From Parahoeflea alexandrii (GTDB taxonomy: Bacteria; Pseudomonadota; Alphaproteobacteria; Rhizobiales; Rhizobiaceae), in contig NZ_JAAAML010000001.1 in assembly GCF_024105735.1 (NCBI RefSeq), forward strand, positions 1,063,809-1,127,808: a stretch of 64,000 nt of DNA, given 5' to 3'. Of this stretch, positions 2,387 through 25,682 are shown in pieces. The notes under the pieces were generated by a model. The model searched no databases and was not told where the DNA came from. It worked only from the letters and a program-made list of their open reading frames with translations. The translations under genes were made by a program, and so were the position numbers. Every line of letters begins with the position of its first letter. Position 1 is the first letter of the stretch.

Positions 2387-3700
2387 CTACATGTGCGAGG
2401 GCAGGTACAGCACCAGCCAGGGAAACAGCACAAGGATCAGCAGCCTCACGATGTCCATCATCCAGAATGGCGTGACGCCCTTGAAGATCGTCCCGACCGA
2501 GATGTCGCCGACGACGCTCTTGAGAATGAAGACGTTGAGGCCGACCGGCGGGGTAATCAGGCTGATCTCTGTCACCACCACCACCACGATGCCGAACCAG
2601 ACCGGGTCAAACCCCAGGCCGGTGACAATGGGGAAGAAGATCGGAACGGTCAGAAGCAGCATGGAGAGGCTTTCGAACACGCAGCCGAGTGCGACATAGA
2701 TCAGGAGGATGACGGTGATGACCAGCCATGGTGAGAGGTCAGCGCTGACGATCATGTCCTTGAGGCCCTCGGGCAGGCCTGCGTAGTTGACGAAATTGGA
2801 GAAAATCCAGGCGCCGATGAGAACGCTGAACAGCTGCGCGGTGGTGATCGCGGTTTCCTTGAGCACGGTCATCGTCTCACCGAACGACAGTGAGCCGCGG
2901 AACAGGGCGATGAGAAAGGCGCCCATTGCCCCCATGCCGGCAGCTTCGGTCGGCGAAAAGGTCAGATGAAGCGGCCAGAAATCGAGCGCGCCGTAGAGGC
3001 CGCCGATCACCAGGAAGAAGAGGAGCAGAACCGACCAGACCCCGCTCAGAGCTTCGAGCTTTTCCTTCACGCTGAACTTCCGGCCGGCCGGTCCGGCGGC
3101 GGGATTGCGGAAAACCGAGATCTGCACGGCGATCAGGTAGAACACGATGCCGAGGAAGCCGGGAATGATGCCGGCGATGAACAGCTTGCCGATCGAGGTC
3201 TCGGTCAGAAGGCCGTAGATCACCAGGATGACCGACGGCGGGATCAGGATCCCGAGCGTTCCGCCGGCGGCGATCGAGGCTGATGAGAGTTCATCGGAAT
3301 AGCCGAGCTTGCGCATTTCGGGCATCACCACTTTCGACATGGTGGCGGCGGTGGCAAGCGATGAGCCGCAAATGGCGGCAAAGCCGCCGCAGGCGGCGAT
3401 CGTGGCCATGGCCAGTCCACCGCGGAAATGGCCGAGAAAGGCGTTCGACACCTGATAGAGTTCGCGGCTGATGCCGCCTTTGTTGACGAACAGGCCCATG
3501 AGGATGAAGAGCGGGACTACCGACAGTCCGTAATCCTGGCTGGTGTCGATGATCAGCCGGGAGACCAGCGAGATCGCCGCCCGGAAATTGGTCTCGTAGG
3601 TCATGCCGGCCATGCCGACGATGGCCATGGCGAAAGCAATGGGCATGCGCAGCAGTACCAGCAGCAGCACCGCGGCAAAACCGATGAGTGATTCAATCAT
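2387..3700 (-). CDS. TRAP transporter large permease (DctM family)
   Basis: Twelve-helix membrane subunit of about 437 residues that couples Na+ entry to solute uptake. It shows family signatures: the N-terminal LIGFAAVLLLVLLRMPIAFAM helix, the ACGGFAAICGSSLATAATM segment, GGTLGILIPPSVILVIYG, and near the C-terminus ITPPVGLNVFILK. The ATG at 3700 is preceded by GAGG and overlaps the end of the small-permease gene by 8 bp, so translational coupling is likely; 24 upstream in-frame residues are hydrophilic and without a ribosome site. It is the last gene of a dctP-dctQ-dctM operon lying next to the MarR/oxygenase locus, so it may import the substrate of that pathway. Confidence 0.93.
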   Translation of the reverse strand: MIESLIGFAAVLLLVLLRMPIAFAMAIVGMAGMTYETNFRAAISLVSRLIIDTSQDYGLSVVPLFILMGLFVNKGGISRELYQVSNAFLGHFRGGLAMATIAACGGFAAICGSSLATAATMSKVVMPEMRKLGYSDELSSASIAAGGTLGILIPPSVILVIYGLLTETSIGKLFIAGIIPGFLGIVFYLIAVQISVFRNPAAGPAGRKFSVKEKLEALSGVWSVLLLFFLVIGGLYGALDFWPLHLTFSPTEAAGMGAMGAFLIALFRGSLSFGETMTVLKETAITTAQLFSVLIGAWIFSNFVNYAGLPEGLKDMIVSADLSPWLVITVILLIYVALGCVFESLSMLLLTVPIFFPIVTGLGFDPVWFGIVVVVVTEISLITPPVGLNVFILKSVVGDISVGTIFKGVTPFWMMDIVRLLILVLFPWLVLYLPSHM

Positions 3701-4199
3701 GTGCGCCTCGGAGAAGGTCTGGCTTGAAGAGAGTGACCATGCCGCGAAGCGCCATCGTGATGGCGGTGACAAGCGTCATGAAGGCGATGAACCAGGTGAT
3801 GTAGAAGACCGGGATCGAGAGATACTCGGTCAGGTCGCCATAGCTTTTCGCGCGGGCGGCAAGATCAAAGGAGCGCATGGCCGGCCAGATCAGCAAAACA
3901 CCGCAGATCAGGGTGATCAGGCCGTTGAGGATGCGCTCTATCCCGGCGCGGCGAAAGAGCGGATCGAGCAGGTCGACAACGATGTGCTCGGCTCGCCCTG
4001 AAACAACAGGCAGCGCCGAGAAAACGATCACCGCCATGGCGATGCGGGTCAGCTCGGTGGCGGCCTCGATGGGAGCGGAGAAGGTGGAGCGCATGATGAC
4101 ATCGGCGAATGTCAGCACCATGAGCACGAACAAAGTTGCTGCGGCGAGGAGCATCGGCAACTCCGTCAGCCGGTTCAGCAATCTGGCGATGGATTTCAT
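3693..4199 (-). CDS. TRAP transporter small permease (DctQ family)
   Basis: Four-helix membrane protein of 168 residues, the usual length. It has the DctQ pattern of a first helix with FADVIMR, an amphipathic segment ending in E-x-T-R-I-A-M, and VVSGRAEHIVVDLL before the third helix. It forms the membrane complex with the large permease encoded immediately downstream (8-bp overlap). The start lies 63 bp after the binding-protein gene, and that gap holds a strong hairpin that would reduce its expression relative to the binding protein. Confidence 0.9.
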   Translation of the reverse strand: MKSIARLLNRLTELPMLLAAATLFVLMVLTFADVIMRSTFSAPIEAATELTRIAMAVIVFSALPVVSGRAEHIVVDLLDPLFRRAGIERILNGLITLICGVLLIWPAMRSFDLAARAKSYGDLTEYLSIPVFYITWFIAFMTLVTAITMALRGMVTLFKPDLLRGAHD

Positions 4200-4226
4200 C
4201 AGTGGCTCCTTGCAGGCAGATATGGA

Positions 4227-4256
4227 TGCGGGGGCAGGATGTTCCGTGCCCCCGCA
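4227..4256 (-). promoter_or_regulatory. Intercistronic hairpin after dctP
   Basis: TGCGGGGGCA (4227-4236) and TGCCCCCGCA (4247-4256) are perfect 10-bp arms around a 10-nt loop, in the 63-bp gap between the binding-protein stop and the small-permease start. No T-run follows. The likely role is protection of the binding-protein mRNA 3' end or partial termination. Confidence 0.6.
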
Positions 4257-4262
4257 ACGATG

Positions 4263-5285
4263 TTACTTGCCGTAGGATGCCATTGTCGACTTGACCATTT
4301 CGGCGGCAGCATCGGCATCGATGCCAAGGGCCGAGATCTCGGCAAGCACCTTGGTGCGGACCCGTGCGGCCATTTCTGCGAACGTGGCCTGGTCTTCGGC
4401 GCTGGCGGTGACGATGGTGTTGTCACCCGCTGCCATGGTGGCCTCGCGCGCCTTGTCGTCGCTTGCGTCCCAGGCAATGCCCATCATCTTCGATGCGGGC
4501 TCACCGAAGACCTTTTCCTCAAGCGCTGCCTTCACGTCGTCAGGCATCGAGTTGAACTTGTCTTCGCTCATGAGGACGGCAAAGGCGCCGCGATAGAAGC
4601 CGCCCGGCATCTCGTAGACGTTCTTTGCGACCTCGTTGAGCTTGAAGCTCAGGCGTTCGCCCATGTTCATGGCGACCGCGTCGGCTGCGCCCGAAGACAG
4701 GGTCTCGTAGACCTTGGGAGCCGGCACCTGGATGCCGATAAGACCGAGTTCGGCACCGACATCGGCCGAAACGCCGCCGCCGAGGCGGGTCTTGAGGCCG
4801 TTGAGATCTGCCAGCGTGGTGACCGGCTTGTTGGAGTGTATCTGACCGGGACCATGTGTGGTCAGCGCAATGACCTTGGTGCCCTTGAACTCGTCAAGCT
4901 GGGCCAGATACTTCTCATGGGCCTGCCAGTAGGCAACGGAAGCGGCTTCCGCATTGCCTTCGTAGCCTGGCAGCTCGATCAGCTTCGTGCCGACGAAGCG
5001 GCCCGGCTGGTAGCCGTTGAAGATGATGGTGATGTCGGCCGCACCATCAAGGATGAGGTCCATCTGTGCGGGCGGAGGGGCAAGGCCCATCTTGATCTCG
5101 CCGCTGACCTTGCCGTCAGTGGCCTCTTCCATCATGTCGACGAGGCCCTCGAGCATATCGACGTTGATCGGATGTGATGGCGGCAGCCAGCTCGATATGG
5201 TCAGGTTGATGTCCGCGGCCATGGCCGATGCGGAGAATCCAACTGCCAGCATCGTGCTTGCCAATAGGGTCCCAATCTTTTGCAT
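4263..5285 (-). CDS. TRAP transporter substrate-binding protein (DctP family)
   Basis: Periplasmic solute receptor of 340 residues with a clear Sec signal peptide (MQKIGTLLASTMLAVGFSAS, cleaved near AMA-A). Family features are the start NLTISSWLPPSHPINVDMLE, the KTRLGGG region carrying the conserved Arg that binds a carboxylate, and SSGAADAVAMNMGERLSFK. A carboxylated ligand is therefore likely. The ribosome site GGGAGG sits 6 nt before the ATG. First gene of the dctPQM operon and 104 bp downstream of the MarR gene on the same strand. The gap contains AT-rich repeats that may bind MarR, which suggests shared control with the aromatic oxygenase operon. Confidence 0.93.
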   Translation of the reverse strand: MQKIGTLLASTMLAVGFSASAMAADINLTISSWLPPSHPINVDMLEGLVDMMEEATDGKVSGEIKMGLAPPPAQMDLILDGAADITIIFNGYQPGRFVGTKLIELPGYEGNAEAASVAYWQAHEKYLAQLDEFKGTKVIALTTHGPGQIHSNKPVTTLADLNGLKTRLGGGVSADVGAELGLIGIQVPAPKVYETLSSGAADAVAMNMGERLSFKLNEVAKNVYEMPGGFYRGAFAVLMSEDKFNSMPDDVKAALEEKVFGEPASKMMGIAWDASDDKAREATMAAGDNTIVTASAEDQATFAEMAARVRTKVLAEISALGIDADAAAEMVKSTMASYGK

Positions 5286-5389: not shown

Positions 5390-5905
5390 TCAGGAATCTG
5401 CGATTGCGGCATCTCTGGCAGGCGAATCGGAGATGCCGGGCTGGTTAGGCTGGTCAGCCTCGAGGTGCCGGATCAGCGCCCGCAGCGTATCCTTGATTTC
5501 GGAGCCGTCGCCGCCCTGGAATGATTTGAGCAATTCCAGTTCGTGTGCTCTGGCGTCGGCCACCAGTTCCTCCGCAAGGGCCCTGCCTTGGGGGGTGAGA
5601 AACACCCGTACCCGGCGGCCATCCGTCGGATCACTGCGACGGGTGACCAATCCGCGGGCATCCATCTGTATGATGATCTTGGTCAGCCGCGATTGTTCGA
5701 TCATGGCGTAGCGCGCAAGTTCGGTGACCATGGATCCGTCTGTGTCGGTCAGGCAGGCCATCACGCGCCACTCGGGCACGCGCAACCCGCGCGTGCGCAC
5801 ATGGCTGTGAAAGCGCGCGCTTGCCGCCTCGCTCGCCGCCGCCAGCAGATAGAGCAGGTAGTTGGGTACAAATGGGGCCTTGGGGTCGTCGATTGTGTTG
5901 CTCAT
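5390..5905 (-). CDS. MarR family transcriptional regulator
   Basis: Winged helix-turn-helix regulator of 171 residues. The MarR core is clear: VPEWRVMACLTDTDGSMVTELARYA (helix-turn-helix lead-in), IEQSRLTKIIIQMDARGLV (recognition helix) and the wing RRSDPTDGRRVRVFLTPQG, followed by a dimerisation helix. MarR proteins of this kind commonly sense aromatic acids. It is divergent from the Rieske oxygenase operon (118-bp gap) and upstream of the TRAP operon, so it probably represses one or both until substrate appears. MarR regulators are reported to control auxin-degradation loci in Variovorax, which fits the pathway proposed here. The C-terminal tail rich in Asp and Ala is not conserved in the family. 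Confidence 0.9.
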   Translation of the reverse strand: MSNTIDDPKAPFVPNYLLYLLAAASEAASARFHSHVRTRGLRVPEWRVMACLTDTDGSMVTELARYAMIEQSRLTKIIIQMDARGLVTRRSDPTDGRRVRVFLTPQGRALAEELVADARAHELELLKSFQGGDGSEIKDTLRALIRHLEADQPNQPGISDSPARDAAIADS

Positions 5906-5971
5906 CCGGATTCCGCGTTCTCAGGGGGAGCTTTCATCGCATCCCCCACGTGCATCTTCAACAAAAACCTC

Positions 5972-5998
5972 TTGACAAGAATTATATGAAAATTCATG
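5972..5998 (+). promoter_or_regulatory. Candidate promoter/operator of the oxygenase operon
   Basis: A perfect -35 box TTGACA lies at 5972-5977. The expected -10 zone overlaps a 12-bp inverted repeat ATGAA-AA-TTCAT (5986-5997), the arrangement expected where a MarR protein blocks polymerase. The -10 hexamer itself matches poorly (CATGTT at 17-bp spacing). Transcription would start about 20 bp before the first gene. Confidence 0.4.
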
Positions 5999-6023
5999 TT
6001 TTCTGGCAAAGGAGATCCGTGAA

Positions 6024-6983
6024 TTGGTTGAACCGGTCAAATTGAAACTCGCCACGGCCCGGATGCTGACGCCATCCATTCGGGAAATGGAATTTGTGCG
6101 CAGCGACGGCGGCACGCTTGCAAGCTACACGCCCGGCGCTCACGTCAAGTTCGCGTTGCCGGCAGGCGAACGCTCCTATTCGCTGATCGATTTTGAGCCG
6201 GTTTCAACTGATTCCGCCATTACCAGCTACCGCTTCGCAGTCCAGCTCGAGGCGCAGAGCACCGGCGGATCGCGGCACATGCATGAGCTTGCGCCCGGCG
6301 ACGAGGTTCTGGCGCTGCCACCAGGCAATGATTTTCCGCTTGTTGCGGCCAAGCCGGCCCTGCTGATCGCCGGCGGCATCGGCATCACGCCGATGATCAG
6401 CATGGCTACGGCACTCAGGCAGTCGGGAACCGGGTTCCGGTTTCACTATACCGGCCGGACCGGTGCTGTGATGGCTTACAGGGATGAGCTGGAAAAGGCA
6501 TTCGGCGATCACCTGGCACTGCATTTCGATGACCAGCCTGAAAAGGCTTTGAATATCGGCAGCATGTCAGCGTCGGTGAGCGCTGAAGAGCATGTCTATG
6601 TCTGCGGACCGAAAGGCATGATCGATGCGGTGAAGTCGGCGATGGAGGCGGCCGGGGTCTCCGCGGACCGGATCCATTTCGAGCTGTTTACATCGGCGGC
6701 AGAGCAGGCCGGTGACACAGCGTTCGAAGTCGAGGTTCACGCGACCGGGGAAGTCTTCGAGATCCCGCCGGGAAAGACGATCATCGATGTGCTCGAGGCG
6801 GGAGGCGTCGATCTCATCCATGACTGCCTGCGCGGTGATTGCGGGATCTGCAAGACGGATGTCATCGAGGGCCTGCCGGATCACCGTGATGTGGTGCTCA
6901 GCGATGCCGAGAAGGCCGAAGGCAAGGTGATGCAGATATGCGTGAGCCGGGCGAAGTCCGCCCGTCTCGTGCTTGATCTTTAG
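6024..6983 (+). CDS. Oxygenase reductase component: FMN/NAD plus C-terminal 2Fe-2S (phthalate-dioxygenase-reductase type)
   Basis: 319-residue electron-transfer protein that would pass electrons from NAD(P)H to the Rieske oxygenase encoded next. Order of domains: flavin-binding barrel (residues 5-105, RSYSLIDF at 50-57), NAD domain (LLIAGGIGITPMI at 113-125, VYVCGPKGM at 191-199), and a plant-type 2Fe-2S domain at the C-terminus with Cys268, Cys273, Cys276 and Cys306. This order is that of the PDR/VanB family. The start is TTG at 6024 with GGAG nine bases upstream; a nearby GTG (6019) is out of frame and stops quickly. First gene of an eight-gene operon, with 11 bp to the next. Confidence 0.9.
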   Translation: MVEPVKLKLATARMLTPSIREMEFVRSDGGTLASYTPGAHVKFALPAGERSYSLIDFEPVSTDSAITSYRFAVQLEAQSTGGSRHMHELAPGDEVLALPPGNDFPLVAAKPALLIAGGIGITPMISMATALRQSGTGFRFHYTGRTGAVMAYRDELEKAFGDHLALHFDDQPEKALNIGSMSASVSAEEHVYVCGPKGMIDAVKSAMEAAGVSADRIHFELFTSAAEQAGDTAFEVEVHATGEVFEIPPGKTIIDVLEAGGVDLIHDCLRGDCGICKTDVIEGLPDHRDVVLSDAEKAEGKVMQICVSRAKSARLVLDL

Positions 6984-6994
6984 GGGAGGTATTC

Positions 6995-8338
6995 ATGGGA
7001 CGATATGCAGGAAATCCGGCGGCGATCAGGGCGCTGTATCGCGGCAACGAAGTCCATCGCGACGTCTACATCGATCAGGAGGTCTACCGGCTCGAGATGA
7101 AGCACCTGTTCGCCAATGCGTGGGTGTTTGTCGGCCATGAAAGCCAGACGCCGAAAAAGGGCGATTATTTTTCCACGCAAGTCGGCGACCAGCCGGTGAT
7201 CCAGGTGCGTCACAGTGACGGCGAAGTGCATGTGCTGCACAACCGCTGCCCGCACAAGGGTACCAAGATCGTCATCGACCGGGCCGGAAACACCGGCAAG
7301 TTCTTCCGTTGTCCCTATCATGCCTGGTCGTTCAAGACCGATGGCTGCCTGCTGGCGATCCCGTTGAAAAAGGGCTACGAAAACACCGGCTTTGAAAACA
7401 GCGACAGCAAGAAAGGCATGCGGGCCGTCGGTGACGTCAGGAACTACCGCGGCTTCATCTTCTGCCGCCTGGCCGAGACCGGCATCTCGTTCGAGGATTT
7501 CTTCGGCGATTCGCTTTCCTCGATCGACAACATGGTCGACCGCTCGCCAGCGGGCAGGCTCGAGGTCGCCGGGCCGCCGCTCAGATACATGCATCACTGC
7601 AACTGGAAAATGCTGGTCGAGAACCAGACCGACACCTGCCATCCGATGGTGGCGCACGAGAGTTCGGCCGGTACCGCGGTCAAGCTCTGGGAAGAGCTCG
7701 ACATGCCGGAAGGATCGCCGCTGCCGCCGGCGATGGAAATCATCGCGCCGTTCATGTCACCCTACGAGTTCTTCGAGAACATGGGCATCCGGACCTGGCC
7801 GAACGGCCATGGCCACACCGGGGTGCATCATTCGATCCATTCGAACTATTCGGCCATCCCTGGATACATGGAGAAGATGGTCGAGGCCTATGGCGAGGAG
7901 AAGGCCAAGGCGATCCTTGATGAGAACCGTCACAACACGGTCTATTTCCCCAACATCATGATCAAGGGGCCGATCCAGCAGCTCAGGGTGTTCATCCCGC
8001 TGGCCGCCGACAAGACGCTGGTGGAAAGCTACATCTACCGCCTGGTCGACGGGCCCGAGCAACTGACCGCGCGCACCGCGATGTACAACCGCATGATCAA
8101 TGCGCCGACCTCGATCGTCGGCCATGACGATCTGGAAATGTACGAGCGGGCGCAGGAAGGGCTGCAGTCCGACGGGCTTGAGTGGGTCAACATCCAGCGG
8201 CTTTACGAGGAGGATGAGGACTTCAGCGAGGAAAAGGTCGAGAACGGAACCACCGAGCGGCAGATGCGCAACCAGTTCGATGCCTGGGTCAGGTTCATGA
8301 CCTGTGACATGGATGATGTGCGGGAGGCGGCGGAATGA
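6995..8338 (+). CDS. Rieske non-heme iron oxygenase, alpha subunit
   Basis: 447-residue catalytic subunit of an aromatic-ring or heteroaromatic oxygenase. The Rieske 2Fe-2S ligands are Cys85-x-His87 and Cys106-x2-His109. The catalytic domain carries the D-x2-H-x4-H motif (Asp213, His216, His221) for electron transfer and iron binding; the final acidic iron ligand is probably in the C-terminal third. GGGAGG precedes the ATG. It overlaps the beta-subunit gene by 4 bp (ATGA), so the enzyme is of alpha-beta type. Sequence style is closest to the benzoate/anthranilate-like and indole-acetate (IacC/IadD-like) groups. The cluster context with an isatin-hydrolase-like gene favours an indolic substrate, which is inference. 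Confidence 0.92.
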   Translation: MGRYAGNPAAIRALYRGNEVHRDVYIDQEVYRLEMKHLFANAWVFVGHESQTPKKGDYFSTQVGDQPVIQVRHSDGEVHVLHNRCPHKGTKIVIDRAGNTGKFFRCPYHAWSFKTDGCLLAIPLKKGYENTGFENSDSKKGMRAVGDVRNYRGFIFCRLAETGISFEDFFGDSLSSIDNMVDRSPAGRLEVAGPPLRYMHHCNWKMLVENQTDTCHPMVAHESSAGTAVKLWEELDMPEGSPLPPAMEIIAPFMSPYEFFENMGIRTWPNGHGHTGVHHSIHSNYSAIPGYMEKMVEAYGEEKAKAILDENRHNTVYFPNIMIKGPIQQLRVFIPLAADKTLVESYIYRLVDGPEQLTARTAMYNRMINAPTSIVGHDDLEMYERAQEGLQSDGLEWVNIQRLYEEDEDFSEEKVENGTTERQMRNQFDAWVRFMTCDMDDVREAAE

Positions 8339-8814
8339 GTGTGTCCAAGGACCAGCTGATCGACTTCATCTACGATGAAGCGCGGATGCTTGATGAAGGG
8401 CGCTATGACGAATGGCTCGCGCTGTGGCTCAAGGACGGCCACTACTGGATGCCGCTCGATTACAACCAGACCGATCCGATCAATGTTACTTCGCTGATGT
8501 ATGAAGATCTGTTCATGCTGAAGTTGCGGGTCGAGCGCCTGAACGGCGCCCGGACATTCTCGCAAAAGCCCAAGAGCCGGTGTCATCACGTCATCCAGCG
8601 TCCGTTCGTTGACGAGATGGATGAGGCCGCCGGAACCTTCGTGACCAAGACCTTCATGCATTATGTCGAGACCCGGCTCGACGAGCAGTTCCTGCTGGCG
8701 CTGACGGCGCGGCATGATCTCGCGCTGGTTGACGGAAAGCTCCGGATCGCCAACAAGCGGGTCGATATCCTCAATTGCGACGCGGCCTTCCGCAATATTC
8801 AGCTGCTGCCATGA
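8335..8814 (+). CDS. Ring-hydroxylating oxygenase, beta subunit
   Basis: 159-residue small subunit of the NTF2/SnoaL-like fold, the usual length. It has the family pattern FIYDEARMLDEGRYDEWLALWLKDGHYWMP near the N-terminus and RTFSQKPKSRCHHVIQRP in the middle. It supports the structure of the alpha subunit and has no catalytic metal. Start and stop overlap both neighbours by 4 bp, showing tight translational coupling. Confidence 0.92.
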   Translation: MSVSKDQLIDFIYDEARMLDEGRYDEWLALWLKDGHYWMPLDYNQTDPINVTSLMYEDLFMLKLRVERLNGARTFSQKPKSRCHHVIQRPFVDEMDEAAGTFVTKTFMHYVETRLDEQFLLALTARHDLALVDGKLRIANKRVDILNCDAAFRNIQLLP

Positions 8815-10454
8815 TCGAGCCGGGGACCCAGACCATCTGGCAGGCTTTTGCCGCCACCGCCGGGCTTTATCAGGACCGTCCTGTGTTCAACATCATGGCG
8901 GAGACTGCCGGAATCTACGGCATCGAACCCGGCGAGGTAAGCTACCGGCAGGTGCAGGAGCAGGTCACGGAACTGGCGGCTTCCCTGCAGCAGAAAGGCT
9001 ACAGCCCCGGTTTCCGGGTCATGCTGCTGCTCGAAAACCGTCCGCAGTTCTTTGTCTGGCTGCTGGCGCTGAACCGGATCGGCGCCTCGGTGGTTCCGGT
9101 CAATCCGGATCTCAGGCACTCGGAGCTTACCTATATGGCCGGCCATTCCGAGCCCTCCCTGATTGTCGGACTTGCGAACCGCTGCGAAGAACTTGCTGCC
9201 GCAGCCAGCGATGCTGGGCTTTCGGTTCCGGTGATCGCGCCGGGCGATGCGGTGCCCCAACCCGGAACAGCGGGCCCCGTTGCGCTCAGGGAAGACGAGA
9301 CCGGTGAAGCACTTGTTGGCGAGGAAATGGAAGCGGCGCTGCTTTACACCTCCGGCACCACGGGCAATCCGAAGGGATGCATTCTCACCAATACCTATTT
9401 TCTCGAAGCCGGGCGCTGGTACGCCAATGCGGGTGGGCTGTGCGCGCTTACCCCCAATGGCGAGCGGATGATCACGCCGCTGCCGATCTTTCACATGAAC
9501 GCCATGGCCTATTCCTTCATGGCGATGGTCGCGGTCGGTGGCTGCCTGACAGTGCTTGACCGGTTTCACCCGTCGAGCTGGTGGCGGTGCGTGCGCGAAA
9601 GCGGGGCGACATGCCTGCATTATCTCGGCGTCATGCCGTCGATGCTGATGGGCGCGGCAGAGGATCCGGCAGACAGGGACCATTCGGTCCGGTTCGGGTT
9701 CGGGGCGGGTGTCGATCCAAAGCTCCATGCGGGTTTCGAGGCGCGCTTCGGCTTTCCACTGGTCGAGGCCTGGGCCATGACGGAGACCGGCGCGGGTGCC
9801 GTGATTTGCGCCAACCAGTTGCCGCGCCGGGTTGGCGAAAGCTGTCTGGGCAAACCGGGAGCCGAACTTCAGGTGCGGATCGTTGATGCAGACGGATATG
9901 TCAGCCAGGCTGGTCCGGGCGAGTTGCTGGTCCGGCGAGAGGGCAGGGATCCCCGTCGCGGCTTCTTCGCCGGCTATTTCAAAAACCCGGAAGCCACCGA
10001 TGAAGCCTGGACGGATGGCTGGTTTCACACCGGCGACATTGTTCGCCGCGAAGCCGATGGCTCGATGTTCTTTGTGGACCGCAAGAAGAACGTGATCCGG
10101 CGTTCGGGCGAAAACATCGCCGCGGTGGAAGTCGAATCGGCGCTGATGCGGCATCCGGCGGTCAAGGCTGCCGCGGTCGCGGCGGTGGCCGATCCGGTGC
10201 GCGGAGACGAGGTGTTTGCCTGCCTCAAGGTCGAGGGTGAGCCGGGCGAGGCGCTGGCTCTCGATATTGTCGGCTGGTGCCTGGGGCAGCTCGCCTATTA
10301 CAAGGCGCCGGGCTATGTCGCCTTTGTCGACGCCCTGCCGCTGACATCGACGCAGAAGATCCAGCGCCGTGAGCTCAAGGAGCTTGCCGAAAGGCTTGTG
10401 CAGGACCCTGCAACGGTAGACACTCGCGGCATGAAGAAGCGGACGGCAGCGTGA
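8811..10454 (+). CDS. AMP-forming acyl-CoA ligase (ANL superfamily)
   Basis: 547-residue enzyme predicted to convert a carboxylate to its CoA thioester through an acyl-adenylate. Core motifs are present: the P-loop LLYTSGTTGNPKG (residues 178-189), the AWAMTETGAG adenine motif, GWFHTGDIVR, the hinge DRKKNVIRRSGENI, and the catalytic Lys near the C-terminus in TSTQKIQRREL. The ATG at 8811 overlaps the beta-subunit stop by 4 bp and replaces a longer in-frame start inside that gene. In the pathway proposed here it would activate the oxygenated indole-acetate side chain so that the next two gene products can cleave it. The exact acid cannot be read from the sequence. Confidence 0.9.
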   Translation: MIEPGTQTIWQAFAATAGLYQDRPVFNIMAETAGIYGIEPGEVSYRQVQEQVTELAASLQQKGYSPGFRVMLLLENRPQFFVWLLALNRIGASVVPVNPDLRHSELTYMAGHSEPSLIVGLANRCEELAAAASDAGLSVPVIAPGDAVPQPGTAGPVALREDETGEALVGEEMEAALLYTSGTTGNPKGCILTNTYFLEAGRWYANAGGLCALTPNGERMITPLPIFHMNAMAYSFMAMVAVGGCLTVLDRFHPSSWWRCVRESGATCLHYLGVMPSMLMGAAEDPADRDHSVRFGFGAGVDPKLHAGFEARFGFPLVEAWAMTETGAGAVICANQLPRRVGESCLGKPGAELQVRIVDADGYVSQAGPGELLVRREGRDPRRGFFAGYFKNPEATDEAWTDGWFHTGDIVRREADGSMFFVDRKKNVIRRSGENIAAVEVESALMRHPAVKAAAVAAVADPVRGDEVFACLKVEGEPGEALALDIVGWCLGQLAYYKAPGYVAFVDALPLTSTQKIQRRELKELAERLVQDPATVDTRGMKKRTAA

Positions 10455-11620
10455 AGCGGCAGAGTTACGACGGGGTGGTTCTGACCGCGCCTGTCTCGGT
10501 GCCCTATGTCCGCTATTCCCAGGAAACCGCACACTGGTGGATCGCGCGCGCGCTCAAGCAGACGCTCGAGGTGGCGAGCCTTTCGCCGCGCCAGCTGGAC
10601 GGGTTTTCGGTCTCGAGTTTCACGCTGTTTCCCGATACGCCGGTGGGGCTGACCCAGCATCTGGGGCTGAGTCCGCGATGGCTCGACAGCATTCCGATGG
10701 GCGGGGCGAGCGGGGTGGTGGCGCTGAGGCGGGCGGCACGCGCGGTACAGGCCGGTGACGCTGATGTGGTGGCCTGCATTGCCGGCGATGCCAACCGGAT
10801 CGACAGCTTTCGCCAGCTCCTGTCGTCGTTTTCGCGCTTTGCGATGGATGCGTCCTATCCCTATGGATCCGGCGGACCGAACGCCAGTTTTGCGCTGATC
10901 GCCGATGCCTACATGACTGAGTATGGTGTGACGCGTGAGGATTTCGGCCGCATCGCGGTGGCGCAGCGGGCCAATGCGCTGCACTACCCGAATGCCATTA
11001 TGAAGGCGCCGCTGACGCTGGAGCAGTATCTTTCCGCCCGGCCGATTTCCGAGCCGTTCGGGCTGTTTGACTGCGTCATGCCCTGCGCCGGTGCCGAAGG
11101 TTTTCTGGTGATGCGCGAGGACGAAGCGCAAAGCCGCGGCCTTGCCTATGCCCGTATTTCTGCAACGATCGAGCGCCACAACGCCTTTCCCGAAGATCCG
11201 ATCCAGCTGCGCGGCGGCTGGGCAATGGATATCGATGAACTCTATGAAATGGCGGGCTGCGGGCCGGAATCCATCGACCTGTTGCAGACCTATGACGATT
11301 ACCCGGTGATCTCGATGATGCAGTTCGAGGATCTGGGTTTTTGCGCCAAGGGAGAGGGCGCGCGGTTCGTGCGCGCGCGCGATCTGACGATCACCGGCGA
11401 TTTTCCGCACAACACCTCGGGCGGGCAATTGTCTGCCGGGCAGGCGGGGGCCGCCGGCGGGTATCTCGGGCTGGTCGAGGCGATAAGGCAGGTGACCGGC
11501 CAGGCTGGCGGCACGCAGGTTGCCAAGGCCCGGACCGCGATGGTGTCTGGCTTCGGGATGATCAACTACGACCGTGGCCTGTGCTCCTCGGCAGCGATCC
11601 TGACAGGGGATGGCGTATGA
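10451..11620 (+). CDS. Thiolase-fold protein lacking the nucleophilic Cys (Ltp2/SCP-x-like, putative aldolase subunit)
   Basis: 389-residue thiolase-superfamily protein. The N-terminal half ends in the usual region of the active-site cysteine, but here the motif reads GGASG at residues 84-88 with no Cys, so ordinary Claisen thiolysis is unlikely. The C-terminal half has NTSGGQLSAGQAGAAGG in place of the thiolase GHP-x-GxSG loop. In actinobacterial steroid degradation, the Cys-less thiolase Ltp2 joins a DUF35 protein to form a retro-aldolase that cleaves a tertiary 3-hydroxyacyl-CoA. The next gene here encodes a DUF35 domain and overlaps by 4 bp, so the same kind of complex is likely. Activity is inferred, the missing cysteine is seen. 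Confidence 0.8.
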   Translation: MKRQSYDGVVLTAPVSVPYVRYSQETAHWWIARALKQTLEVASLSPRQLDGFSVSSFTLFPDTPVGLTQHLGLSPRWLDSIPMGGASGVVALRRAARAVQAGDADVVACIAGDANRIDSFRQLLSSFSRFAMDASYPYGSGGPNASFALIADAYMTEYGVTREDFGRIAVAQRANALHYPNAIMKAPLTLEQYLSARPISEPFGLFDCVMPCAGAEGFLVMREDEAQSRGLAYARISATIERHNAFPEDPIQLRGGWAMDIDELYEMAGCGPESIDLLQTYDDYPVISMMQFEDLGFCAKGEGARFVRARDLTITGDFPHNTSGGQLSAGQAGAAGGYLGLVEAIRQVTGQAGGTQVAKARTAMVSGFGMINYDRGLCSSAAILTGDGV

Positions 11621-12861
11621 CCGACAAGCTTCTGCCGCCGAAAAAGAAAAACCCGCAGTTGCGCCAGATGGTGCCCACGCTGCCGCCGCAGATGCGCTCG
11701 CGGGCGGCGCTGGGGCTGACTGCTGCTGCGGCGCGCGGGGCGTTCTCGCTGCAGCATTGCCAGGAATGCGGCGCTGTCCAGTATCCACCGCGCGATGCAT
11801 GCTGCGCCTGTCTCTCGGTCGATCTTGCCTGGCGCAAGACACCGAGGGAAGGCACGGTGATCGCCGAAACCCGCATTAACGTGTCGCCTGATCCCTATTA
11901 TCGCGAGCGGTTGCCCTGGCGTTCCGGTCTGGTGCGGCTTTCGGCCGGACCGACTGTTTTGTGCCACCTGCACGGCGATGTGGGGCGGGGCGACATCGTT
12001 CTTATGGATCTCAAGCTCGACAAGGCCGGGCAGGGTGTGATGATCGCTCTGCCTCAGGAAAGGAGTCCCGACATGGCGGACGATCCGCAATTGCGCGAGC
12101 TCACCGCGCATCCCAAACACCGGCGGGTGCTGATCACCGACATCAGGTCTCCTGCAACACGGCCGCTGATCGAGGCGCTGCTCAAGGCCGGGGCCTCGCA
12201 GATCTTCGTCGGCGAATCCGAAAGCTGGCGGCGTGGATCCGATCATGCGGCGATTGCCGGACTCGACAAGGTCTCGGTGATGCCGCTTGATGTCTCCGAT
12301 CCGTCCTCGGTGAAGAGACTGGCTGCCGAGATCGGCGGCAAGACCGATATCCTGATCAACACCGCGCGGCATGTGCGGCCCGGTGGGGTGCTCGGCTCCG
12401 ACACGGTGTTTGCGCGCGAGGAGTTCGAGATCAATGCGCTGGGGCTGATGCGGCTGGCGCAGGCCTTCGGTCCAGGCATGGCGTCGCGCACCGCTGACGG
12501 TGTCAATTCGGCCGTTGCCTTCGTCAACCTCCTGTCGGTGCATGCCTTGTCGGCAGACCCGCAGTATGGCGCGTTTTCGGCCAGCCAGGCGGCGGCGCTG
12601 TCGATCAGCCAGACGCTGAGGGCCGAGTTCCGCGCTTCGGGTCTCAGGATGATCAATGTCTTTGCCGGGCCGACCGACGATGAATGGCATCAGCCGCTGC
12701 CGCCGCCGAAAGTGGCGCCGAAGGCGCTCGCCATGTCCATCGTCGAAGCGCTCTGCGAAGGGCTCGAGGATGTGTATTGCGGCGATGTCGCAAAGGATCT
12801 GGAGGAGCGCTGGCGGCGTGATCCCAAGGTTCTGGAACGTGAACTTGCGGGAGGCGCCTGA
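11617..12861 (+). CDS. Fusion protein: DUF35 zinc-ribbon/OB domain plus degenerate SDR domain
   Basis: 414-residue fusion. Residues 40-150 form a DUF35 module: zinc ribbon Cys48-x2-Cys51 and Cys62-x2-Cys65, then an OB-fold (EGTVIAETRINVSPD to GQGVMIALP). DUF35 proteins partner thiolase-fold enzymes and help hold acyl-CoA. Residues 168-400 look like a short-chain dehydrogenase, but the glycine-rich nucleotide loop is lost (ITDIRSPATRP), NNAG is replaced by NTARH, and the catalytic Tyr and Lys are Phe320 and Gln324 while Ser307 is kept. This half is probably a non-catalytic scaffold or CoA/substrate-binding domain. The ATG at 11617 overlaps the thiolase gene by 4 bp, and one base is shared with the following gene. 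No frameshift is needed to join the halves. Confidence 0.82.
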   Translation: MTDKLLPPKKKNPQLRQMVPTLPPQMRSRAALGLTAAAARGAFSLQHCQECGAVQYPPRDACCACLSVDLAWRKTPREGTVIAETRINVSPDPYYRERLPWRSGLVRLSAGPTVLCHLHGDVGRGDIVLMDLKLDKAGQGVMIALPQERSPDMADDPQLRELTAHPKHRRVLITDIRSPATRPLIEALLKAGASQIFVGESESWRRGSDHAAIAGLDKVSVMPLDVSDPSSVKRLAAEIGGKTDILINTARHVRPGGVLGSDTVFAREEFEINALGLMRLAQAFGPGMASRTADGVNSAVAFVNLLSVHALSADPQYGAFSASQAAALSISQTLRAEFRASGLRMINVFAGPTDDEWHQPLPPPKVAPKALAMSIVEALCEGLEDVYCGDVAKDLEERWRRDPKVLERELAGGA

Positions 12862-13658
12862 TGAGCAATCCACTTGATCAGCTTGCGTCGGCTCTTGCAG
12901 GCGGTACGGTCGAGATTGTCGATCTCACCCACACGCTGGATCCGGATTTTCCGGTGATCGTGCTGCCGCCGGAGTTCGGTCAGTGTGCGCGGTTCCGGAT
13001 GGAGGAAGTCTCGGCCTATGACGGCCGCGGGCCGGCTTGGAAATGGCACAACATTTCCATGAACGAGCACACCGGCACGCATTTCGATGCGCCGATCCAC
13101 TGGGTCTCGGGCCGCGATGTCGCCAATGGTGCGGTCGACGAGATCGATCCCTCGGTTTTTGTCGGACCGGTGGTGGTGATCGATTGTTCCGAGGGCGCTG
13201 CGAGTAACGATGATTTTGAGCTTACGCCCGAGATCATCGATGCGTGGGAAGCCGAACACGGCCCAATTCCGGCCGACAACTGGGTGCTGATGCGCACCGA
13301 CTGGTCGAAACGGCGCGGTGCCGAGTATCTCAATATGGCGGACGACGGGCCGCATTCACCCGGGCCCACTCCGGCGGCGATCGAGACACTGCTGAAGCGC
13401 AACATCCGCGGGTTTGGTACCGAGACTGTCGGGACCGATGCTGGGCAGGGCGCGCATTACGTGCCGCCCTATCCGGCGCATTATCTGCTGCACGGGGCGG
13501 GGAAGTACGGGCTTCAGTGTCTTTCCAACCTCGACCGCCTGCCGCCCAAGGGGGCGATGCTGATCGCGCCGCCGCTGAAGATCAAGGGCGGCACCGGCAG
13601 TCCGCTCCGGGTGCTGGCGCTGGTGCCGGCTGGATCAGGTTCTGGAGAGACCAAATGA
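12861..13658 (+). CDS. Cyclase-family metal hydrolase, isatin hydrolase-like
   Basis: 265-residue member of the cyclase/kynurenine-formamidase-like family (PF04199 type). The metal motif H-x-G-T-H-x-D-x-P-x-H is complete (His70, His74, Asp76, His80). Further blocks recalled from the Labrenzia aggregata isatin hydrolase are present: WEAEHG, VLMRTDW, GPHSPGPTP, GTDAGQ, PPYPAHYLLH, NLDRLPPKGA and LKIKGGTGSP. This points to hydrolytic opening of isatin (an indole-2,3-dione) to isatinate, using Mn2+. The comparison is from memory of the family, not a search. It sits immediately after the putative aldolase genes that could form isatin. Kynurenine formamidase is the main alternative, but no tryptophan or kynurenine genes are nearby. 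Confidence 0.82.
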   Translation: MSNPLDQLASALAGGTVEIVDLTHTLDPDFPVIVLPPEFGQCARFRMEEVSAYDGRGPAWKWHNISMNEHTGTHFDAPIHWVSGRDVANGAVDEIDPSVFVGPVVVIDCSEGAASNDDFELTPEIIDAWEAEHGPIPADNWVLMRTDWSKRRGAEYLNMADDGPHSPGPTPAAIETLLKRNIRGFGTETVGTDAGQGAHYVPPYPAHYLLHGAGKYGLQCLSNLDRLPPKGAMLIAPPLKIKGGTGSPLRVLALVPAGSGSGETK

Positions 13659-14380
13659 GCGAGTACACGGCCGTCATCACCGGCGCCTCCAAGGGGATCG
13701 GCGCGGACCTGGCAGGCAAACTGCTTGAACGCGGCTATACGGTGATCAACCTGTCGCGCAATGCGCCCGAGTGGACGCATGAGCGGCTCGTCAGCCTCGA
13801 ATGCGACCTGCTTGATGCGGAGGCGGTCAAGGCGGCTGCCCACCGCATTGCCAGCGAGCACAAAGTCACCCACTTCGTCCACAATGCCGGGCTGATCTGG
13901 CCCAATCTCGTGGAAGAGGCAAAGCCAGAAGACATTACCGGTCTGTCGCAACTGCACTTGGGCTCGGCGCTGACGTTGTTGCAGGGCTTCCTGCCATCGA
14001 TGAAGGCGAAGAAATTCGGCCGCGTGATGTTCAATGGGTCGCGTGCGGCACTCGGCGTGCCGACGCGGACCGCCTATTCGGCAACCAAGGCCGGGATGAT
14101 TGGCATGGCCCGGACATGGGCGCTGGAACTGGCGCCGCATGGCATCACCGTCAATGTGGTGGCGCCGGGGCCGATCCAGACCGACAATTTCTGGGGCATC
14201 ATCCCGAAAGGCAGCGAGCGCGAGGCGGACCTTGCCAACAGGATCCCGGTCGGGCGTCTGGGCTCGGTGGATGATGTGAGCAACGCATTCCTGTTTTTCT
14301 GCGATCCGGCGAGCAGCTTTGTCACCGGTCAGACACTTTATGTCTGCGGTGGTACCAGCATCGGCATGATCAACCTGTAA
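13655..14380 (+). CDS. Short-chain dehydrogenase/reductase (classical SDR)
   Basis: 241-residue NAD(P)-dependent oxidoreductase with all classical motifs: TGASKGIG (9-16), NAG (77-79), Ser129, Tyr141 and Lys145 of the YxxxK pair, and a PGPIQTD segment. Unlike the SDR half of the fusion protein upstream it is fully equipped for catalysis. The ATG at 13655 overlaps the cyclase stop by 4 bp; an upstream in-frame extension overlaps the cyclase gene and is rejected. Last gene of the operon. In an indole-acetate route it might oxidise or reduce dioxindole/isatin-type intermediates or an aldehyde; the substrate is not predictable. Confidence 0.9.
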   Translation: MSEYTAVITGASKGIGADLAGKLLERGYTVINLSRNAPEWTHERLVSLECDLLDAEAVKAAAHRIASEHKVTHFVHNAGLIWPNLVEEAKPEDITGLSQLHLGSALTLLQGFLPSMKAKKFGRVMFNGSRAALGVPTRTAYSATKAGMIGMARTWALELAPHGITVNVVAPGPIQTDNFWGIIPKGSEREADLANRIPVGRLGSVDDVSNAFLFFCDPASSFVTGQTLYVCGGTSIGMINL

Positions 14381-14468: not shown

Positions 14469-15254
14469 CTAGATCGCCAGATAGTCGTGTCGCAGCTGCT
14501 CGTTCTCGAGAACTTCCTTGGCGGTGCCATCGTAAACGACCCCTCCGGATTCGAGGATGACCGCACGATCGGCAAGCTGAAGCGCGCGCACGGCATTCTG
14601 CTCGACCAGGATCGTGGTGATGCCCTGCTGCTTGATGATGTTGAGCGTCTTTTCGATCTCGTCAACGATGACCGGTGCCAGGCCTTCATACGGTTCGTCG
14701 AGAAGCAGGACCTTGATGTCGCGGGCCAGCGCACGACCGATCGACAACATCTGCTGCTCACCACCCGACAGCGTGACGCCTTCCTGCTTGCGGCGTTCGC
14801 CGAGCCGCGGGAACAGTTCGTAGATGCGTTCCACCGACCAGCCGATAGGCGGGGCGATCTGGGCCAGCTGGATGTTTTCCTCGACTGTCAGCCCTGCAAT
14901 GATGCGCCGGTCCTCCGGAACAAGTGCCAGGCCGTTGGTCGCGGCCTCATATGAGGTCATCCGGTGGAGAGGCTTGTGGTCAAGCCATATCTCCCCATGG
15001 GTGACCTGGGGATTGTCGAGGCGTGCGATGGCGCGCAGGGTTGAGGTCTTTCCGGCCCCGTTGCGCCCGAGCAAGGCAAGGATTTCGCCTTCGTGCACAT
15101 TGAAGTTGACGCCCTGGACGATGTAGCTCTCACCATAATAGGCATGCAGGTCATAGACCGAGAGATAGGCCGGTGCGGTGGCCGCCTGGTTGGCATTCTT
15201 CGAAAAATCAGGGCGCGGTTTGGTCGCGGCCGTGTCTGTTCCCAGCGTCGTCAT
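14469..15254 (-). CDS. LIV-type ABC transporter ATP-binding protein (LivF family)
   Basis: 261-residue cytoplasmic ATPase of a branched-chain-amino-acid-type importer. Walker A GRNGAGKTS, signature LSGGEQQML, Walker B VLLLDEPYEGLAP and the switch His-like region (ILVEQNAV) are all present. The first about 30 residues are an extra, poorly conserved N-terminal tail. It overlaps the LivG-type gene by 4 bp and is the last gene of the five-gene operon. LIV-type systems also import aromatic acids and amides, so the amino-acid name should not be taken as the ligand. Confidence 0.93.
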   Translation of the reverse strand: MTTLGTDTAATKPRPDFSKNANQAATAPAYLSVYDLHAYYGESYIVQGVNFNVHEGEILALLGRNGAGKTSTLRAIARLDNPQVTHGEIWLDHKPLHRMTSYEAATNGLALVPEDRRIIAGLTVEENIQLAQIAPPIGWSVERIYELFPRLGERRKQEGVTLSGGEQQMLSIGRALARDIKVLLLDEPYEGLAPVIVDEIEKTLNIIKQQGITTILVEQNAVRALQLADRAVILESGGVVYDGTAKEVLENEQLRHDYLAI

Positions 15255-16006
15255 GCGCTTTCTCCCAAATAGGCTTCCTTGACCTTCGGATGTCCCTTGA
15301 TGTTCTCGGGTATGTCTTCAACCAGCGGTGTGCCCTGGGCGAGAACGGTGATCCTCTGGGCGAGGGAGAAGACCACGTGCATGTCGTGTTCGATGATGAC
15401 CATCGTGATGTCGCGCGATGCGTGGATCTGCTTGAGCAGGTCGATGGTGTTGTTGGTGTCTGCGCGGGCCATGCCGGCTGTCGGCTCGTCGAGCAGCAGC
15501 AGCTTCGGCTCCTGCACGAGGCACATGGCCATCTCGAGGCGGCGCTTGTCGCCGCGCGACAGCGAGCCGGCGATCATGTCGCGCTTGGCCGCCATGTTGA
15601 CTTCTTCCAGCATGGCTTCGGCTTTTTCGATGATCGACTTCTCGCTCTCGATGCTTTCCACCGCATGCAAGCGGAAAGACCCGTCGCGCTTGGCAAAGCA
15701 GGGAATGAGCATGTTTTCCAAGACGCTCAGATCGGTGAAGATCTCGGGTGTCTGGAACACGCGGCTGATGCCCAGCTGGTTGATCTGAAATGGTGTCCGA
15801 CCGAGCACGGACTGCCCCTGAAAGGTCACGCTTCCGGTATCGGGGATCAGTTTCCCGACCAGCACGTTCAAGAGCGTCGATTTGCCGGCTCCATTGGGCC
15901 CGATGATGGCGTGAACCGATTTTTCGGCAATATCAAGGTTCACGTCGCCCAAGGCCTGCAATCCGCCAAAGCGCTTGTTGACGCCTTTAACTTCTAGAAT
16001 TCCCAT
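15251..16006 (-). CDS. LIV-type ABC transporter ATP-binding protein (LivG family)
   Basis: 251-residue ATPase, partner of the LivF-type protein in the importer heterodimer. Motifs: Walker A GPNGAGKST, the family-typical KSVHAIIGPNG lead-in, signature SLSRGDKRRLEMA (a divergent LSRGD signature seen in some members of this group), Walker B LLLLDEPTAGM, and the switch region VIIEHDM. The gene is 15 bp after the LivM-type gene and overlaps the next by 4 bp. Confidence 0.93.
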   Translation of the reverse strand: MGILEVKGVNKRFGGLQALGDVNLDIAEKSVHAIIGPNGAGKSTLLNVLVGKLIPDTGSVTFQGQSVLGRTPFQINQLGISRVFQTPEIFTDLSVLENMLIPCFAKRDGSFRLHAVESIESEKSIIEKAEAMLEEVNMAAKRDMIAGSLSRGDKRRLEMAMCLVQEPKLLLLDEPTAGMARADTNNTIDLLKQIHASRDITMVIIEHDMHVVFSLAQRITVLAQGTPLVEDIPENIKGHPKVKEAYLGESA

Positions 16007-16021
16007 GGTTCAGACTCCAGC

Positions 16022-17233
16022 TCAGGCTACGTGCGGTTTGGGAGTGGGGTGGTGCTCGGGGTCCTTGCCGCCGGAACCGGAGCCCTTCTTGCGCTTGAAG
16101 AGCTTGGCGATGCGCTCGCCACCCTCCATCAGGCCGCCCGGCAGGAAGATCACGACGAGCATGAAGACGATGCCCAGCGTCAGGTGCCAGCCCTTGCCGA
16201 TGAAGGGATGGATCACGGTGACGACGAAATCTTCCAGTCCGTCGGGCATGAAGGAAAACCACTGATGCAGGATCGTATCGTTGATCTTGGAGACAATGTT
16301 TTCCATGTACTTGATCATGCCTGCGCCAAGGACCGGTCCGATCAGCGTGCCGGCGCCGCCAAGGATCGTCATCAGCACGACCTCGCCGCTTGCCGTCCAG
16401 AACATGCGTTCCGGCCCGACCTGGGTATCCATTGCCACCATCAGACCGCCGGCCAGACCGGCATACATGCCCGAGATAACGAAGGCTGCGAGCGTGTAGG
16501 GGCGTGAATTGAGACCCGTATAGTTGAGCCGCTGCTGGTTGCTCTTGATGGCGCGCAGCATCATGCCGAATGGCGAGCGGAAGATGCGGATGGCAATGTA
16601 GAAACTGATGATCATCATGAAGGCGGCTACATAGTAACCGGCGTTGAAGGTGAAATCCCATCCTCCGACCTGGAGACTGACATTTTCGCTCATCTGGAGG
16701 CCGAACAGGTTGGCGCGACCGAATTCGCCGGCATTGCTGTCCAGGATCCGCGGATCGCTGATCTTGGCCTGGAGGCCCGTCTCGCCGCCGGTGATCGGTG
16801 TGAGCACCGAATAGGCCAGTGCGTAGGACATCTGGGCGAAGGCCAGTGTCAGGATGGAGAAGTAGATGCCCGAACGGCGCAGGCTGATCCAGCCAACCAG
16901 CAGCGAAAACAGACCTGCAAAGATCACCGACATGATGATTGCCGGGATCACATTCATGGTCAGAAGCTTCATCATCCAGATTGCCGCGTAGGAGCCAACT
17001 CCGAGGAACGCTGCGTGACCAAAGGAGAGGTAACCAGTCAGCCCGAACAGGATATTGAAGCCGATGGCAAAAATCCCGAAGATCACGAAACGCTGCATCA
17101 GGTCCGGATAGCCGGCGTTGAACTGGGCAAGCTCCGAGTCAACGGGGAAGGGGTTGAGCAGGAAGGGAGCCAGCATAGTCAGCGCGATGACAAGCAGCAG
17201 CAGGCGAGTGTCTTTTGTGTTCAATCCAAGCAT
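16022..17233 (-). CDS. LIV-type ABC transporter permease (LivM family)
   Basis: 403-residue inner-membrane permease with about ten hydrophobic helices. LivM signatures include [20 protein letters not shown] and the ATPase-coupling segment [17 protein letters not shown], with [13 protein letters not shown] near the C-terminus. An extended polar C-terminal tail rich in Lys, Gly and His ([16 protein letters not shown]) is not a usual part of the fold. A 3-bp gap separates it from the LivH-type gene. Confidence 0.92.
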
Positions 17234-17236
17234 GGC

Positions 17237-18268: not shown

Positions 18269-18318
18269 CGGTTCCACCTTTCAAGGAGTCGCTGGGTGGG
18301 GCATATATCGTAGTCTAG

Positions 18319-18346
18319 CCGGCTGCGCCGCGAGCGGCGCAACCGG
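18319..18346 (-). promoter_or_regulatory. Strong hairpin between binding-protein gene and permease genes
   Basis: On the minus strand CCGGTTGCGCCG and CGGCGCAGCCGG form a 12-bp stem (one G-T wobble) with a 4-nt loop, 27 nt after the binding-protein stop. No T-run follows on this strand, so it is best read as an mRNA-stabilising or attenuating stem that favours the binding protein over the permeases. On the plus strand a T-rich stretch follows, but no plus-strand gene ends here. Confidence 0.6.
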
Positions 18347-18373
18347 TTGTTTTCCTTAACTGACCTTTTGAGA

Positions 18374-24058: not shown

Positions 24059-24100
24059 ATGCAACATCTGACCAAAGAGCTTTTCAACAGGGAGAATGCC

Positions 24101-25075: not shown

Positions 25076-25091
25076 GAAGGTCAGATAACCA

Positions 25092-25117
25092 GCGGGCGCC
25101 CCAATGCGGGCGCCCGC
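25092..25117 (+). promoter_or_regulatory. Intercistronic hairpin after second dctP
   Basis: GCGGGCGCCC (25092-25101) and GGGCGCCCGC (25108-25117) form a perfect 10-bp GC stem with a 6-nt loop, 16 nt after the binding-protein stop and 17 nt before the small-permease start. Short ATTCTT follows. This is the same design as at 4227-4256. Confidence 0.62.
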
Positions 25118-25134
25118 ATTCTTGGGGGCAGGGC

Positions 25135-25674: not shown

Positions 25675-25682
25675 GGCGGACC

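Follow-up and report, generated by a model that had tools for sequence, protein, structure and literature searches.

The iad loci of Variovorax paradoxus CL14 and Bradyrhizobium japonicum (iadABCDEFGHIJK..R) are the closest described counterparts of an operon in a 64,000-nucleotide stretch of the Parahoeflea alexandrii genome, here called the window. The iad locus, its control by MarR, and a route from indole-3-acetic acid (IAA) through isatin are already in print (PMC9613470, PMC10374108, PMC12633357). The preprint PMC12633357 names iadC as a reductase, iadD and iadE as an oxygenase, iadF as an acyl-CoA (coenzyme A) synthase, iadG as a thiolase, iadH as an alcohol dehydrogenase, iadI as a formamidase, and iadJ as a dehydrogenase, and this is the order in the window. 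With a probability of about 0.8, the operon encodes the core (iadC-J) of aerobic IAA catabolism by the iad pathway, including a retro-aldol step carried out by IadG and IadH. A first-pass annotation had read the genes as a new-style route from IAA through isatin. Its IAA-isatin reading is correct, although that route was already published; its retro-aldol idea is a valuable addition to what is in print.

The operon has the core gene order of the iad locus. Eight packed genes on the forward strand (6024-14380) run in the order iadC-D-E-F-G-H-I-J, and a marR gene on the reverse strand diverges from them. Each iad gene shares 1 to 7 bases with the next, the sole exception being an 11-base gap between iadC and iadD. 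Pfam finds, in order, a reductase, Rieske alpha and beta subunits, an AMP-ligase, a thiolase C-domain, zf-ChsH2/OB_ChsH2_C (DUF35) joined to a short-chain dehydrogenase/reductase (SDR), a cyclase, and an SDR. All genes listed in the first-pass annotation are present and accurately described, and the gene order that it proposed to seek elsewhere does recur. The loci compared number 82, comprising 80 named contigs (the best 80 of 239 confirmed, biased to close relatives) and two plasmids. Strict one-strand C-D-E-F-G-H-I-J order is found in 61 of them, and the rest have C-D-E-J (six), C-D-E-F-J (three), F-G-H-I-C-D-E-J (two), or other patterns (ten, seven of which lie on contigs ending nearby). 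The genome G379, by inference Variovorax-like, shows the same C-J order, and its IadD shares 94% identity with that of Variovorax; from C to J its proteins are 45, 57, 47, 57, 63, 53, 61, and 54% identical to those of the window. Because the strict order recurs in 61 loci and in G379, the grouping is not due to chance.

The window shares with the Variovorax and Bradyrhizobium loci the C-J order (compared through G379), MarR, and the isatin route, but it has no iadAB in the operon, a tripartite ATP-independent periplasmic (TRAP) transporter instead of an IadK2-type ATP-binding cassette (ABC) transporter, and marR directly beside iadC. The host is a marine Hoeflea-like bacterium with a 4.9-Mb genome, and its closest named relatives at this locus are Hoeflea species and one unclassified metagenome-assembled genome (IadD 94-95% identical). 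The Ruegeria pomeroyi DSS-3 megaplasmid also carries C-J in order, with only 48-63% identity to the window, as does a Roseibium aggregatum plasmid, where TRAP genes lie on the opposite side. The same core is found in many marine Rhodobacterales and in relatives of Hoeflea, which suggests that IAA may commonly serve as a nutrient there.

The oxygenase and the regulator point to IAA as the substrate. A search of 177,635 distinct solved sequences gives only two close relatives of IadD (6995-8338), 9o71 (584 bits) and 7yls/8h2t (580 bits), followed by HcaE with 139 bits. The first of these is an IadD chain (PMC12633357), and by similarity 7yls and 8h2t appear to be IadD chains as well. The first-pass annotation had stated that its reading would fail if the nearest oxygenases acted on non-indolic acids; that the nearest solved ones are IadD favors it. 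Fourteen metal and IAA-pocket residues of IadD have been published (PMC10374108), of which the window protein keeps 13; Leu211 is replaced by Gln. The beta subunit IadE (8335-8814; Pfam Ring_hydroxyl_B) follows iadD in all 82 loci, and IadC (6024-6983, with a TTG start as called) has Fer2 and NAD_binding_1 domains, as expected of a reductase with 2Fe-2S and NAD-binding domains. The operon therefore appears to encode an IadDE-type IAA oxygenase. Similarly, the MarR protein (5390-5905) is 61% identical over 140 amino acids to R. pomeroyi MarR 3CDH (phmmer, 176 bits), which binds IAA with a KD of 0.237 uM (PMC9613470), suggesting that it is an IadR-type regulator. It would repress the operon until IAA releases it. 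The marR-iadC intergenic region (5906-6023) contains a putative operator, the palindrome ATGAA-AA-TTCAT (5986-5997), which is unchanged in eight aligned sequences (the window and L002-L008). It also contains TTGACA, which we take to be a promoter element.

The first oxidations probably involve IadJ as well as IadCDE. The product of IadCDE has been given as 2-oxindole-3-acetate (PMC10374108) and as a 2,3-epoxide that is hydrated and then oxidized by IadJ (PMC12633357), and published mutants assign the second oxidation to IadJ (PMC12633357). The first-pass annotation had oxygenation alone yield dioxindole-acetate; the second oxidation needs IadJ, whose orthologue is the last SDR of the operon. 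This protein (13655-14380) is an intact dehydrogenase with TGxxxGIG and YSATK motifs, and its catalytic Tyr and Lys are both present in 84 of 84 aligned sequences. By orthology with the Variovorax proteins, IadCDE would oxygenate IAA and IadJ would oxidize the hydrate to dioxindole-3-acetate. IadF (8811-10454; Pfam AMP-binding) is an AMP-forming acyl-CoA ligase that, judging from its family and from mutants, would convert dioxindole-3-acetate to its CoA thioester, in agreement with the CoA activation proposed earlier.

The active site of IadG resembles those of DUF35-dependent aldolases. IadG (10451-11620) has a thiolase fold, and alignment, an AF2 model (pLDDT 82.7), and Foldseek, whose top match is the Sal-Shy(DUF35) aldolase 9myr, point to an aldolase-type site made up of G85, Y281-D-D-Y284, Q326, and Q331. 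At positions 85, 281, and 331, IadG and CtSal both have Gly, Tyr, and Gln, and the thiolases 7yvy and 7pxp have Cys, His, and His. Both histidines are catalytic in thiolases. All 85 distinct IadG sequences counted carry Gly85 and the YDDY motif (two short sequences were left out of the counts for IadG and IadH). IadG thus seems to lack the nucleophilic Cys and catalytic His residues that mark a thiolase. The protein had been called a Cys-less thiolase, and indeed the nucleophilic Cys is replaced, but six other Cys are present.

Its partner IadH (11614-12861) is a fusion of a DUF35 region, with a zinc ribbon (C49/C52/C63/C66) and an OB fold, to a degenerate SDR domain (Pfam zf-ChsH2, OB_ChsH2_C, and adh_short; model pLDDT 83.9). 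The SDR half has the catalytic Tyr and Lys together in none of 86 sequences, and Asp or Asn takes the place of the first Gly of TGxxxGxG in all 66 compared. It therefore does not appear to be a classical SDR dehydrogenase with a YxxxK pair, and it looks catalytically dead. Like CtSal-CtShy (9myr) and TcLtp2-ChsH2 (6ok1), the IadG/IadH pair combines a thiolase fold, Gly for Cys, the Tyr of a YDxx motif, a DUF35 partner encoded next door, and a probable CoA-thioester substrate, which are features of Sal/Ltp2-type aldolases. It differs in its YDDY motif (YDCY in Sal, YDHF with a second Tyr in Ltp2), in the domain fused to DUF35 (an apparently dead SDR here, a MaoC hydratase there), and in its indolic substrate; on these residues IadG would work like Sal and Ltp2 but is neither. 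With the DUF35 domain of IadH holding it, IadG would split the tertiary 3-hydroxyacyl-CoA by retro-aldol cleavage into isatin and acetyl-CoA. Tyr281 would serve as the base and Asp283 probably as the acid, and the SDR half of IadH would be a scaffold. The retro-aldol logic that the first-pass annotation saw in this pair is supported by the Gly/Tyr/Gln and YDDY signature. Its account was incomplete: the SDR half is probably inactive, and within the operon the route goes no further than isatinate.

The next enzyme is most likely an isatin hydrolase. IadI (12861-13658) scores 492 bits against 5nnb, the isatin hydrolase A of Labrenzia (Roseibium) aggregata, and no functional difference between the two was found. 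The signatures HxG[T/A]HxDxPxH (HxGTHxDxPxH in the window), GLQC/GLAS (GLQC), and the aromatic pocket WxW, together with the metal site, are present in window IadI and kept in 84-85 of 85 sequences. The IadI orthologue in the iad locus of Roseibium aggregatum IAM 12614 (L059) is identical to 5nnb at 253 of 253 residues compared, and that enzyme has been studied as an isatin hydrolase (PMC6117287). The protein described earlier as isatin-hydrolase-like can thus be raised to an isatin hydrolase A orthologue, and the isatin route is supported. If IadI hydrolyzes isatin to isatinate, as its Roseibium orthologue does, then isatin must be made upstream in the pathway. The published metabolites fit with this route: C8H7NO2, which has the formula of reduced isatin, builds up in iadI mutants, and the compound C8H7NO3 matches isatinate in formula and is not N-formylanthranilate (PMC12633357). 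Kynurenine formamidase was rejected as a function for IadI, which scores only 33 bits for NCBIfam arylformamidase (cut-off 223) and carries the isatin hydrolase signatures.

The published account of the side-chain removal is different. In it, a ketothiolase (IadG) and an alcohol dehydrogenase (IadH) act with IadF to remove the acetyl side chain reductively, giving dioxindole (PMC12633357). It draws on mutants of iadF, iadG, iadH, and iadI, all of which accumulate dioxindole-acetate (C10H9NO4), and on the C8H7NO2 that builds up without iadI. However, the nucleophilic Cys is Gly in all 85 IadG sequences and the Tyr-Lys pair is missing from all 86 IadH sequences, the G379 copy included, and both features argue against the assignment. 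In addition, a tertiary 3-hydroxyacyl-CoA cannot on chemical grounds yield the 3-ketoacyl-CoA needed by a thiolase, and isatin hydrolase requires isatin and not dioxindole. These points make the ketothiolase reading unlikely, and the retro-aldol step is better supported by sequence comparison. Several observations nevertheless weigh against the retro-aldol step. The preprint assigns IadG and IadH otherwise, and the accumulating compound reported has the formula of dioxindole and not of isatin (PMC12633357). The oxyanion Gln161 of CtSal is aligned by eye with a Pro in IadG, and its essential Cys304 with Asp283. A small tree places IadG on a separate branch among Sal, Ltp2, and the thiolases with supports of only 38-39, and fold scores do not set aldolases apart from thiolases. 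By analogy with 5u4s, the nearest solved SDR, which likewise lacks the Tyr and yet was crystallized with NADP, IadH may still bind a cofactor. The words "retro" and "aldol" are absent from the available text of PMC12633357, and no proposal of a retro-aldol step or an isatinate oxidoreductase was found by title in the literature searched, most subscription journals being outside its coverage.

It is very unlikely that the operon merely resembles iad and degrades another indolic or aromatic acid, such as chloro-IAA or another arylacetate. The change of Leu211 to Gln in the pocket, shared by 89 of 94 aligned sequences, would fit such a substrate. The neighboring transporter, a TRAP system and not an IAA-specific ABC binding protein, would fit as well. 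Against this, every other published pocket and metal residue is kept, the MarR protein is nearest to the IAA-binding 3CDH, an isatin hydrolase lies within the operon, and R. pomeroyi, with the same gene order on its megaplasmid, is among the strains with IAA loci that were tested and is said to degrade IAA (PMC9613470). Assignment to the iad pathway is in turn weakened by the lack of a MarR match in the R. pomeroyi C-J locus examined (L083), so that the link from 3CDH to the operon rests on PMC9613470, and by the lack of an IadK2-type transporter locally and of iadA and iadB in or next to the operon.

The genes iadA and iadB are listed as subunits of indolepyruvate oxidoreductase and as exclusive iad markers (PMC9613470), and judged by this marker the window operon is a split form that would function as iad does. 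Isatinate would be the end product of the operon, with later enzymes encoded elsewhere. An IadA-type protein is encoded about 283 kb from the operon (G000:C1:1360916-1363054; 72% identical to IadA of L147), adjoined by IadB. The distant cluster (L158, 7321-14061, reverse strand) has the order iadB-iadA-marR-CrtI-like FAD oxidoreductase-isatin hydrolase, and the last scores 475 bits against isatin hydrolase B (4j0n). Past iadA, at a distance of about 11 kb, are a bifunctional FAD/FMN enzyme (NCBIfam salicylyl-CoA 5-hydroxylase/oxidoreductase, 1315 bits, cut-off 1078), a CoA ligase, and a kynureninase. The architecture of the bifunctional enzyme is presumably that of 2-aminobenzoyl-CoA monooxygenase/reductase.

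Linkage suggests that isatinate is the substrate of IadAB. An IadA-type gene (E 1e-150) is present in 22 of 22 genomes with IadH and in 47 of 375 others. Among 40 IadA loci (those fetched out of 72 places listed), an isatin hydrolase gene lies 0.6 to 7.5 kb from IadA in 25 (16 of 26 without IadH and 9 of 14 with it). The host genome has two isatin hydrolase genes at 50% identity or more, and if other genomes resemble it, the chance of such proximity is less than one in a hundred. The iadB-iadA-MarR-FAD oxidoreductase-isatin hydrolase B cluster recurs in genomes without iadH, and it looks like an auxin-independent unit for isatin degradation. IadAB would probably oxidize isatinate to 2-aminobenzoyl-CoA. 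In strains that overexpress iadC-K2 and lack genes 77-53, iadA among them, C8H7NO3 accumulates strongly (PMC12633357); its build-up without iadAB fits with IadAB acting on isatinate, although overexpression alone could also explain it. Own-genome IadA scores far below the cut-off for NCBIfam indolepyruvate oxidoreductase alpha (279 versus 651). On the other side, IadB passes the beta family (677 bits, cut-off 348), and strains given the iadC-K2 region still made anthranilate although they lacked iadAB (PMC12633357). The odds are about even that iad uses both an unassigned retro-aldolase, IadG with its YDDY motif and DUF35-dead SDR partner, and IadAB as an isatinate (2-aminophenylglyoxylate) oxidoreductase that forms 2-aminobenzoyl-CoA, thereby connecting isatinate with central metabolism, and also acts in auxin-independent isatin degradation.

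The genes seem to fall into modules. IadG is missing locally from 14 of the 82 loci, two of which (L006, L048) stop at a contig end. Among the other 12, iadJ lies beside C-D-E in nine, and L010, L014, and L042 lack J too; all 12 of these genomes, and both controls, nevertheless have an IadG (14 of 14). That J stays with C-D-E fits the published place of IadJ in the pathway, directly after IadCDE (PMC12633357). Separate C-D-E-(F)-J and G-H-I blocks occur in the large genomes G217, G200, and G111 of the same order. The split is not universal, since G457 and G728 hold C-D-E-F-J and G-H-I blocks within 19 kb around iadAB (L191, L193). Among 397 genomes of the order, IadD (E 1e-80) is found in 14 and IadH (E 1e-60) in 22, and all 14 IadD genomes have IadH. 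Fisher tests, with kinship ignored, give 1.5e-20 for IadD-IadH and 8e-19 for IadH-IadA. Genes for G and H, mostly with I, occur in eight genomes without an IadD match (L127, L143-L150), several beside CoA ligases, and in L127 and L149 they adjoin an FAD/FMN bifunctional enzyme; these organisms may have another source of a dioxindole-acetate-type substrate.

Other oxygenase copies are more distant. The iad locus of G379 holds a second oxygenase pair (L116, 8203-9977; 48/45% to window D/E), and a third IadD-like gene lies outside the locus; these extra copies have altered pocket residues and perhaps serve other auxins. The third copy (L095) and the L085 copy differ at published IadD positions 251 and 322. 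Homologues on a Variovorax plasmid and in Burkholderia (41-43%) look like paralogues. On a Pantoea agglomerans plasmid (L084, 11057-18101), homologues of iadCDE (alpha 55%) sit next to a flavin oxidoreductase, an amidase, and an aromatic amino acid transporter, with no F-J match within the fetched stretch, which suggests a different downstream route.

Auxin degradation by bacteria affects how roots grow, and iad gene cassettes are being introduced into bacteria associated with roots (PMC12633357). In print, two of the pathway's steps have either no assignment or one that present evidence suggests is wrong. The residue-level predictions, that IadG is an aldolase, that the IadH SDR is dead, that IadI is an isatin hydrolase, and that IadAB acts on isatinate, can be tested with purified proteins.

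Uptake is likely to involve the TRAP transporter next to marR (2387-5285, reverse strand). Its DctP (4263-5285) is identified by Pfam and has 4p56 as best solved relative (189 bits), and the open reading frames at 2387-3772 and 3693-4199 look by eye like permeases. A TRAP solute-binding protein of at least 55% identity is present in 38 of the 82 loci. The ABC transporter at 14469-19735 is not supported as the IAA importer; its binding protein has distant solved relatives only (best 86 bits, none labelled IadK2). Its genes are found beside the operon at 70% identity or more only in L003-L005, though some loci end earlier. Farther along (22781-26996) are an FAD-dependent oxidoreductase (DAO) and a second TRAP transporter (DctP, DctM). 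The region from 30214 to 51051 appears to encode a giant RTX adhesin with type I secretion genes: a 5811-amino-acid open reading frame with RTX calcium-binding repeats and cadherin-like/Big domains (36214-41613 lay outside the scan) is followed by ABC (47919-49748) and HlyD (49741-51051) genes.

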